A stretch of DNA of 64,000 nucleotides from an uncultured Spirochaetaceae bacterium (GTDB taxonomy: Bacteria > Spirochaetota > Spirochaetia > Sphaerochaetales > Sphaerochaetaceae). This document shows positions 52,217-54,421 of the stretch, piece by piece (position 1 is the stretch's first letter; every line of letters begins with the position of its first letter). Where the stretch lies: positions 62,001-126,000 of the forward strand of contig CALXKJ010000006.1 in NCBI GenBank assembly GCA_944388955.1, given 5' to 3'. Both the position numbers and the translations under genes were made by a program. A model generated the notes under the pieces. That model searched no databases. It saw only the letters and a list, made by a program, of their open reading frames with translations, and had not been told where the DNA came from.

Positions 52217-53215
52217 TCAGTCAAGAGCGTGGCCAGCTGAGCCAAGCACATCGATATTCTTGTGCATATACATCTTCTTGAGTTCCTCACGAGCTGGTCC
52301 GAGATACTTTCTTGGATCGAACTCTGCAGGCTTCTCATCGAAGATCTTCCTGATGATAGCTGTCATTGCAAGTCTTCCATCTGAATCGATGTTGATTTTG
52401 CATACAGCTGATTTAGCGGCCTTCCTGAGCTGCTCTTCAGGGATACCGACGCTGTCAGCAAGCTTTCCGCCATGCTCGTTGATCATCTTCACATACTGCT
52501 GTGGGACTGATGATGAGCCGTGGAGAACGATAGGAAAGCCTGGAAGCTGCTTCTCGATTTCCTCAAGGATGTCGAATCTGAGCGGTGGTGGAATGAGGAT
52601 GCCATCAGCATTTCTTGTGCACTGGTCAGGTGTGAACTTGTATGCGCCATGGCTTGTACCGATGGAGATAGCAAGGGAATCGACACCAGTGCGTGTTGCG
52701 AAGTCAACGACTTCCTCAGGTCTTGTGTAGTGGGAAACTGCAGAAGAGACTTCATCTTCGATACCTGCAAGAACACCAAGTTCGCCTTCTACTGTTACAT
52801 CATGCTCATGTGCGTAATCAACGACTTTCTTTGTAACAGCGATGTTCTCTTCATAAGGAAGGCTGGAGCCATCAATCATGACGGATGAGAAACCATTGTC
52901 GATGCAGTCCTTTGCTGTCTGGAATGAATCGCCATGGTCGAGATGAAGTGTGATTGGGATATCACAGCCAAGCTCGTGTGCATAATCTACAGCACCGCGT
53001 GCCATATTGCGGAGCAGGTTGATGTTTGCATAGTCTCTTGCTCCTTTTGAAACCTGAAGGATGACAGGTGCCTTTGTCTCTACGCATGCAGAGATGATTG
53101 CCTGCATCTGCTCCATATTATTGAAGTTGAATGCTCCGATAGCATAGTGACCCTTCATAGCCTTGCTGAACATGTCTCTTGTGTTGACAAGCCCAAGCTC
53201 TTTGTAGCTGATCAT
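52217..53215 (-). CDS. fba: class II fructose-1,6-bisphosphate aldolase
   Basis: 332 aa. Zinc motif HLDHG at 91-95 (with LHLDHGDS), the strand with EGELGVLAGIEDE, GTSHGAYKF, and VLHGSSSVP, typical of class II aldolases. It cleaves fructose bisphosphate to DHAP and GAP in glycolysis. AAGGAGG lies 7 nt before the ATG at 53215; upstream in-frame codons cover the promoter region. Divergent from the lipoprotein gene at 53390. Confidence 0.96.
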   Translation of the reverse strand: MISYKELGLVNTRDMFSKAMKGHYAIGAFNFNNMEQMQAIISACVETKAPVILQVSKGARDYANINLLRNMARGAVDYAHELGCDIPITLHLDHGDSFQTAKDCIDNGFSSVMIDGSSLPYEENIAVTKKVVDYAHEHDVTVEGELGVLAGIEDEVSSAVSHYTRPEEVVDFATRTGVDSLAISIGTSHGAYKFTPDQCTRNADGILIPPPLRFDILEEIEKQLPGFPIVLHGSSSVPQQYVKMINEHGGKLADSVGIPEEQLRKAAKSAVCKINIDSDGRLAMTAIIRKIFDEKPAEFDPRKYLGPAREELKKMYMHKNIDVLGSAGHALD

Positions 53216-53238
53216 AGATCGCCTCCTTATCTCTGATA

Positions 53239-53268
53239 AGACTATCCCATAGACCATGACACGGTCAA
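53239..53268 (-). promoter_or_regulatory. fba: candidate fba promoter
   Basis: On the minus strand TTGACC (53268-53263) and TAGTCT (53244-53239) are 18 nt apart. The divergent lipoprotein promoter uses the same TAGTCT hexamer. Confidence 0.45.
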
Positions 53269-53325: not shown

Positions 53326-53356
53326 TTGACAATATTAAACCGGGGGGGGGTAGTCT
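53326..53356 (+). promoter_or_regulatory. poly-G promoter, candidate phase-variation switch
   Basis: A perfect TTGACA (53326-53331) is followed by a 19-nt spacer ending in nine G (53342-53350), then TAGTCT (53351-53356). Two fewer G would give the optimal 17-nt spacing. Homopolymeric G tracts between promoter elements are known slipped-strand switches, including upstream of Treponema pallidum tpr genes. It controls a surface lipoprotein. Confidence 0.6.
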
Positions 53357-53389
53357 TGATATGAGAACTTATTTTCTGGAGGTGCGTAA

Positions 53390-54421
53390 ATGAAAAAAGT
53401 TTCGATAATTTTATTATCTCTGATGCTTATCATTGCAATGACAGCTTGCGACCCAAAAATGGAGCAGAAGCCATGTATTCATGTAATCGATGAAGAGAAT
53501 GTTGTTTCTTATTTCGATTCAGCGAGGAAGTACCCAAGTTCTGGTACATGCACCAAGTGCGGTGAATTTGTGATGCTTGACGGTATTTCAGTGTCAACGC
53601 CTGGTGATCTGATGAATATTGGAAATGATATCAATTCCAAGAAAGTGATTGGTACTCATAAGATCAATATCGCAAATGACATTGACATGAGTGGTATGGT
53701 CTGGATGTCTCCTAAGCTTTCCGGGTATGAAGGTGCTAAGACATTTATCATCGACGGTAATGGATATAAGATTTCAAACCTCATTGCCGGTAATGAGAAT
53801 TCTGCAACTGAAGCAGGGTTTATCGGAAGTCTCTGGAGTGATGTAGCTCTGGTAATCAGAAATCTTACGCTTGAGACTCCTAAAATTAAAGCTAACGGTA
53901 CTCCTGGAATAGGGGCGTTTGTTGGCAATATTTCTGCTTCTCCTTTTGTAGAGATCACAAATTGCCATATTGTCGGTGGCGAAATCAATGGGGGACACTG
54001 GGCAGGTGGAATCTATGGTTATGCGGCGGGTTATAATAATGAGAATAATGGTCCTGTGCATACTATTGTAAATATTGATGGTTGTTCGGTTAATGGTGTA
54101 ACTATAACCGGCGATAATGCTTCTGTTGGTGGCATAATGGGACATGCTGGAGGAGATTCAAATACTGAAATCAATGTCTCGAATGCATCTGTTACGGATT
54201 GTTTGATTTCAACGATAAATGTGAAAGGCGAGGACGGTGTTAAAGCTGGAAATATACTAGGAACAAATGGCGTCGGTGATACGACACTTACTAATGTTAC
54301 ATACTCTGGAAACACTGTGACAAATAATGGTGAAAGTAATAACGAAGTTTATGGACGGTTAGTATTTAAGGGAGAGGGCTCTCTAACCATTGATGGAGAC
54401 TCGATTACAGAAGCTGAGTAA
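53390..54421 (+). CDS. surface lipoprotein with GLUG-like beta-helix repeats
   Basis: 343 aa. A lipoprotein signal ends AMTAC (Cys20). The mature N-terminus has C-I-H and GTCTKCG, a Cys/His arrangement seen in surface proteins with short zinc-knuckle-like modules. From about residue 70 the sequence is rich in Gly, Asn and Ile with repeated G-x-x-x-G units (GIGAFVGNI, GGIYGYAAG, GGIMGHAGG), as in GLUG and right-handed beta-helix adhesins. No enzyme motif is seen. Base composition is more A/T rich than its neighbours. GGAGG is 7 nt upstream. The promoter carries nine G (53342-53350). Surface exposure and antigenic role are inference. Confidence 0.72.
   Translation: MKKVSIILLSLMLIIAMTACDPKMEQKPCIHVIDEENVVSYFDSARKYPSSGTCTKCGEFVMLDGISVSTPGDLMNIGNDINSKKVIGTHKINIANDIDMSGMVWMSPKLSGYEGAKTFIIDGNGYKISNLIAGNENSATEAGFIGSLWSDVALVIRNLTLETPKIKANGTPGIGAFVGNISASPFVEITNCHIVGGEINGGHWAGGIYGYAAGYNNENNGPVHTIVNIDGCSVNGVTITGDNASVGGIMGHAGGDSNTEINVSNASVTDCLISTINVKGEDGVKAGNILGTNGVGDTTLTNVTYSGNTVTNNGESNNEVYGRLVFKGEGSLTIDGDSITEAE

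Follow-up and report, generated by a model that had tools for sequence, protein, structure and literature searches.

We propose that a run of nine G between the -35 and -10 hexamers of a lipoprotein gene is probably a slippage switch and is one member of a genus-wide set of lipoprotein promoters with a spacing set point of 19 nt, a reading drawn from the comparison of sequences. The run lies in the window, by which we mean the whole stretch of 64,000 nt from an uncultured Spirochaetaceae bacterium that was analyzed. The promoter reads TTGACA-ATATTAAACC-GGGGGGGGG-TAGTCT (53326-53356) and is followed by 33 nt and an ATG at 53390 (Table 1). This layout of TTGACA, 10 nt, G9 and TAGTCT with a 19-nt spacer had been described in the initial annotation of the window and is found there exactly.

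In mechanistic terms, a sigma-70-type promoter set of the form TTGACA, about 10 nt ending in WAC[C/T], a run of approximately nine G, and TAGnnT would drive surface lipoprotein genes that are dispersed over the genome. Slipped-strand mispairing would let the tract gain or lose G residues, and each such change would shift the distance between -35 and -10 around the 19-nt set point and alter the transcription of each lipoprotein independently. As a consequence of independent switching every cell could display its own combination of surface lipoproteins.

Table 1. Features of the window (positions 1 to 64,000) and loci of the insertion sequences found beside G tracts.
Feature	Position or locus	Strand	Basis
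-35 hexamer TTGACA	53326..53331	+	Sequence; position matched in 270 sites, 37 genomes
5' part of the spacer, ATATTAAACC, with the conserved WAC[C/T] as its last bases before the G run	53332..53341	+	Sequence
G9 tract, putative slippage element; total spacer 19 nt	53342..53350	+	Sequence
-10 hexamer TAGTCT, TAGnnT class, abutting the 3' end of the tract	53351..53356	+	Sequence
Shine-Dalgarno sequence GGAGG, within the 33-nt stretch from -10 to ATG	53378..53382	+	Sequence; about 30 nt and a Shine-Dalgarno sequence are typical of the set
Signal peptide of the lipoprotein, MKKVSIILLSLMLIIAMTAC; the cysteine of the lipobox is encoded at 53447-53449	53390..53449	+	Open reading frame; signal-peptide kind common to the set
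Surface-type lipoprotein, 343 aa, beta-helix/GLUG-like family	53390..54421	+	Open reading frame, homologues, Pfam of the family
Promoter-like pair of fba, TTGACC-18 nt-TAGTCT	53239..53268	-	Sequence
Divergently oriented neighbour fba, gene for a class II fructose-bisphosphate aldolase, outside the switch	52217..53218	-	Pfam F_bP_aldolase, E 1e-96
IS3-family copies	L343-L351 (G012); L352, L358 (G014); L353 (G029); L354 (G023); L355, L359 (G008); L356, L360 (G003); L357 (G019)		
Second element, ends directly before WAC-G9 (own genome)	C3:67, C6:81, C29 end (L025, L030, L041)		
Second element, other ends (own genome)	C7, C14, C20 (L310-L312)		

In the window, which has a GC content of 46.5%, runs of four G occur 75 times and runs of five G 7 times, while runs of six to eight are absent and a single run of nine is present; the tract is therefore well clear of chance. 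That a run of nine would be improbable had been claimed before and holds, the other runs of the window reaching five G at most. Dinucleotide shuffles, which retain the GG counts contributed by the G9 tract itself, yielded two or more overlapping G8 matches in 13 out of 100 cases. The window likewise contains no second comparable run, as had been stated, and the genome as a whole possesses 22 runs of eight or more G.

Within this genome (2.1 Mb, 33 contigs) exactly nine G are found in 16 of the runs and exactly eight in one. Eleven of the 22 runs are located between a TTGAC -35 and a TAnnnT -10 with a spacer of 17-21 nt, at loci scattered over many contigs; a twelfth formal match has a 27-nt spacer, and its run lies inside a restriction-enzyme gene. 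Extending the search to the genus, the pattern TTGAC-N-G6+-TAnnnT, in which the tract has to abut the -10, was matched at 270 sites in 37 out of 48 species, compared to 2 matches for the reversed-pattern control, and 256 of the 270 sites have G7 or more. All genomes are draft assemblies, one per species and most if not all of them metagenome-assembled, in which homopolymer counts can err by one; the members of the genus among the matches listed in the collection scan were deposited as MAGs under the names "uncultured Spirochaetaceae" or "uncultured Spirochaetales". The simpler pattern TTGACN{9,13}G8 is present in most species of the genus, and in 24 other families of the class it gave scattered hits at most, at one or two places each, with controls near zero.

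In the consensus for the genus TTGACA is followed by a stretch, mostly of 9-10 nt, whose last bases are AAC or TAC and then C or T; G9 and TAGnnT come next. Spacers with a 10-nt 5' part, a class that was defined post hoc on data already seen, carry AC at positions 8-9 in 61 of 61 cases from 12 genomes, and the third position of the -10 is G in 71 of 119 sites. Even a pattern that is blind to the tract (TTGACA-N6-WAC-N10-TAnnnT) matches mostly G-tract promoters. A second promoter class has a 5' part of 7 nt and a spacer of 16, e.g. TTGACAAACTACT-G9.

Outside the genus, the matches listed in a scan across bacteria were scattered in Clostridia, Bacilli, Verrucomicrobia, a termite-gut alphaproteobacterium and others, and many of them precede exported proteins. 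Multiple TTGACA-N-G8-10-TAGnnT promoters, some of them before exported proteins, were observed in unrelated and partly gut-derived MAGs, namely Alphaproteobacteria Emb289P3bin18 (L194, L200, L260), Verrucomicrobiaceae SIG74 (L226, L250, L258) and Clostridia Lapin-024 bin7 (L197, L247, L261). Judging from these patterns the poly-G promoter layout seems to have arisen repeatedly across bacteria.

The genes behind the tracts share a common character. A lipobox, called by a simple regular expression, is present in the downstream gene of 76 out of 83 pure-tract promoters with a readable open reading frame, typically with a Shine-Dalgarno sequence and at a distance of roughly 30 nt from the -10. The signal peptides are alike across the set (MKKILIALLA.MMLFAFTAC) and the mature parts diverge. 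Several lipoprotein genes per genome possess a tract promoter of their own, as in multi-gene variable lipoprotein systems; among the targets in the genome of the window are an LRR protein of the BspA type and a beta-helix/pectate-lyase-like adhesin. The window lipoprotein has homologues in five other species with 40-49% identity, and a second copy in one species with 45%. G runs of 8-10 precede five of the six homologue copies examined; the sixth has GGGAGGGGGG beside the end of an insertion sequence (IS) instead. The GLUG-like character that the initial annotation assigned to this protein has to be regarded as weak: the protein itself has no Pfam match at E <= 0.1, and Glug is found in four of six members of the family (best E 0.005). 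Pectate_lyase_5 is matched in 3 of 6 members (best E 4e-5), and a single-sequence fold of the window protein is of low confidence (pLDDT 50).

The likeness between the genes is concentrated at their beginning. The median identity is approximately 0.76 for promoter and UTR and 0.7-0.8 for the signal peptide, and it drops to a baseline of about 0.6 after the lipobox; in one gene pair promoter and UTR are identical except for the tract. Conserved promoter and signal regions are thus combined with divergent mature proteins, as known from Vlp-type families. Genes of one genome with unrelated upstream DNA and unrelated mature proteins often have a near-identical stretch in common, which starts shortly before the -35 and runs up to the lipobox cysteine. 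Such a cassette is shared by the pairs L039/L188, L133/L140, L099/L102 and L157/L160, with mostly unrelated mature parts; the exception is L157/L160, where the likeness continues past the lipobox. In L039/L188 the identity starts 4 nt before TTGACA and stops, one base aside, at the cysteine codon, and the tracts differ by one inserted A. We infer that the cassette was spread by gene conversion or duplication.

The length of the tract varies among the relatives between G7 and G12 with a mode of 9. Where two copies in the same genome agree fully in -35, spacer flank and -10, the number of G differs in 24 out of 42 pairs, these pairs being not independent of one another. In genome G019 two copies can be aligned over 184 bp without a mismatch, one of them having one G more than the other, and around one lipoprotein promoter present in both G004 and G019 approximately 260 bp are identical except for 8 versus 9 G. 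Length differences between otherwise identical copies are thus found among paralogues as well as among species. As the compared copies come from different places or species and are not reads of one clone, they speak for instability over evolutionary time; we infer that slippage may also occur within a clone and that tract length may affect transcription. The recurrence of the promoter throughout the genus, the lipoprotein targets and the length differences between copies strongly support a phase-variation candidate, and phase variation by slippage at these promoters is well supported by comparison but unproven. The surface-lipoprotein switch suggested in the initial annotation is supported on these grounds, with the correction that it would not be a single switch but one of a genome-wide set.

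The position of the set point can be approached from the distribution of the spacers. The total spacer has its mode at 19 nt (112 of 256 sites) and ranges mostly from 16 to 22. G10 or longer is far commoner where the 5' part has 9 nt than where it has 10 nt (Fisher p 1e-4; p 2e-5 when the outlier genome G025 is left out); since the longer tract goes with the shorter 5' part, the total length of the spacer is under selection. Tracts with an internal A or T are expected not to slip, and in a hand-selected set of 19 such interrupted tracts, compared post hoc on data already seen, the spacer is 19 in 15 cases versus 102 out of 199 pure tracts (one-sided p 0.017). The lipoprotein genes downstream of the interrupted tracts are mostly open. 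By these sequence counts 19 nt is the spacer length that is preserved, and it is probably an active one; it would represent a high state, with other lengths weaker. Both the mode and the interrupted tracts at 19 tend to argue against 17 nt as the ON state, and the earlier remark that the loss of two G would lead to 17 nt is unsupported if read as a step to the ON state, as the genus keeps 19.

In a small sample from six genomes of the genus, ordinary TTGACA/TATAAT promoters prefer spacers of approximately 16-18 nt, so that 19 could equally be a weak state at most loci. A G-tract can take an A-like helix with a shorter rise. Speculatively, such a helix could make 19 nt behave as a shorter spacer.

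The strongest alternative is a fixed promoter element without a switch. Here the structure of the G-tract or a dedicated binding protein would make the 19-nt spacer work, the lipoproteins would be co-regulated, and the length drift would be mostly neutral. This is in agreement with the invariant AC directly before the tract in the main class and with the preference for a total of 19 although ordinary spacings are near 16-18. It is also in agreement with the persistence of interrupted yet G-rich tracts at 19: about 20 point-interrupted tracts persist, which indicates that the purity of the tract is not essential for its function. The fixed offsets between IS elements and tracts, described below, suggest in addition that the tract is recognisable by something. 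A fixed element, however, would not need perfect homopolymers, and pure tracts outnumber interrupted ones by roughly 10:1. Furthermore, all studied promoter-spacer G tracts of this kind that came up in the literature are length-sensitive (PMC7864442, PMC3639595).

The fixed element also leaves unexplained the tracts that lie in coding frames of the same genome. A type ISP restriction-modification enzyme with at least 915 open codons contains an in-frame C9 (L021:2053-2061, contig position C1:38252), which makes this enzyme a candidate for a phase-variable restriction system. An exported Wzi-like protein of 598 aa likewise contains a G10 in its frame (L036:2002-2011, contig C20), and a similar exported open reading frame with G9 is broken by an IS at the tract (L025:67-75, contig C3). 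Restriction enzymes and exported Wzi-like proteins are kinds of genes that are typically phase-variable, and they would fit a contingency-locus genome. We therefore regard the fixed element as unlikely compared to the slippage switch.

A second alternative arises from mobile DNA. In genome G012 nine out of nine copies of one IS have a G9 or G10 tract whose start lies at a distance of 53-56 nt from the landmark TGTCCACTAA, corresponding to about 29-34 nt from the IS end, and four of these nine tracts are not TTGACA promoters. Over seven genomes 18 of 21 copies of an IS3-family element lie upstream of G9-G12 tracts at this offset, be they promoter or non-promoter tracts; of the three exceptions one is beside an interrupted G-rich run and two are without a tract. 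The assignment to the IS3 family is based on a helix-turn-helix in OrfA (HTH_Tnp_1, weak, E 0.008) and on HTH_21 (4.5e-9) plus rve (2.4e-11) in the IS3-like OrfB, both from L353. A second element has the end TGTCTACCTTCAGGGGGTTAGTTCA, and all three of its right ends in the genome of the window are located directly before WAC-G9, with 3-bp target duplications where both flanks could be matched. A canonical G9 lipoprotein promoter is split in two by the C6/C7 insertion of this element. IS remnants in G014 and G034 likewise abut G runs. A literature search for IS elements targeting poly-G found none, and a search on IS3 target specificity and homopolymers returned nothing evidently relevant.

According to this alternative the G runs would have no regulatory role; they would result from biased slippage or be retained because mobile elements land on them. 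The inclusion of non-promoter tracts among the IS3-family sites is in line with such a relic. The tracts nevertheless concentrate between the -35 and -10 of lipoprotein genes with a conserved total length, and most tract promoters are without an IS, so that the elements make use of the tracts and are not their origin; we consider this explanation very improbable. Chance or an assembly artefact has next to no probability in our view, as even in draft assemblies with error-prone homopolymers some ten loci per genome are alike in many separately assembled species with the reversed-pattern control near zero, and chance as a general explanation is refuted by the genome and genus counts against these controls.

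Returning to the slippage switch, the authors lean towards a dual use of the module. It would act as the slippage switch of a combinatorial, dispersed set of lipoproteins, with the cassette spreading between unrelated genes, and would at the same time be the target of at least two kinds of IS, which would integrate on the upstream side of the G tracts with fixed offsets of approximately 31 and 4 nt. The neighbouring fba gene stands apart: it is near the tract as had been claimed, with its start 124 nt off and on the opposite strand, and a role of the G9 tract in its expression is rejected in view of its separate promoter-like pair, so that the tract is not needed for fba.

A homopolymer between -35 and -10, as found here, is known from other bacteria. 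In Treponema pallidum the OmpW homologue TP0126 has a poly-G at this position whose length sets transcription (PMC7864442), and the promoters described here resemble those of TP0126, tprL and tprE/G/J as spirochaete surface-protein promoters with poly-G in the -35/-10 spacer. T. pallidum differs in that few genes of one pathogen are concerned, with an optimum of 17 nt, whereas the present genus of uncultured gut bacteria has about ten lipoprotein promoters per genome, which have their set point at 19 nt and share a promoter/signal-peptide cassette. In Mycoplasma mycoides the promoter-spacer repeat of the variable surface protein Vmm has a length that tracks the ON/OFF state (PMC10502178), which is similar in having a repeat in the spacer and different in being a dinucleotide repeat of a single gene. 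The porA promoter of Neisseria meningitidis possesses 9-11 G between -35 and -10 with graded expression, and surface PorA compared to 11G is two-fold lower with 10G and 13-fold lower with 9G (PMC3639595). The likeness lies in the poly-G between -35 and -10; porA is, however, a single gene for an outer-membrane porin and not a set of lipoproteins. The vlp genes of Mycoplasma hyorhinis form one cluster and have poly-A as tract, whereas here the tract is poly-G and the loci are on many contigs. In this surface lipoprotein family each gene has a homopolymer tract in its promoter and switches independently (PMC10502178), which is comparable to the many lipoprotein genes with their own homopolymer promoter in the present genus. 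A literature search on homopolymer phase variation in gut spirochaetes gave nothing evidently relevant.

The kind of mechanism is thus known, and what is new is its scale, the host, the spacing set point, the sharing of the cassette and the targeting by IS elements. If the slippage switch is true, poly-G promoter switching would extend from a small number of genes in a few pathogens to the genome-scale lipoprotein repertoire of gut spirochaetes that are represented by draft assemblies only. The hundreds of natural spacer variants in the genus, including those locked by point interruptions, provide a testable case of a G-rich spacer setting promoter strength. An IS aimed at poly-G would, if true, represent an unusual choice of target, coupling mobile DNA with contingency loci.
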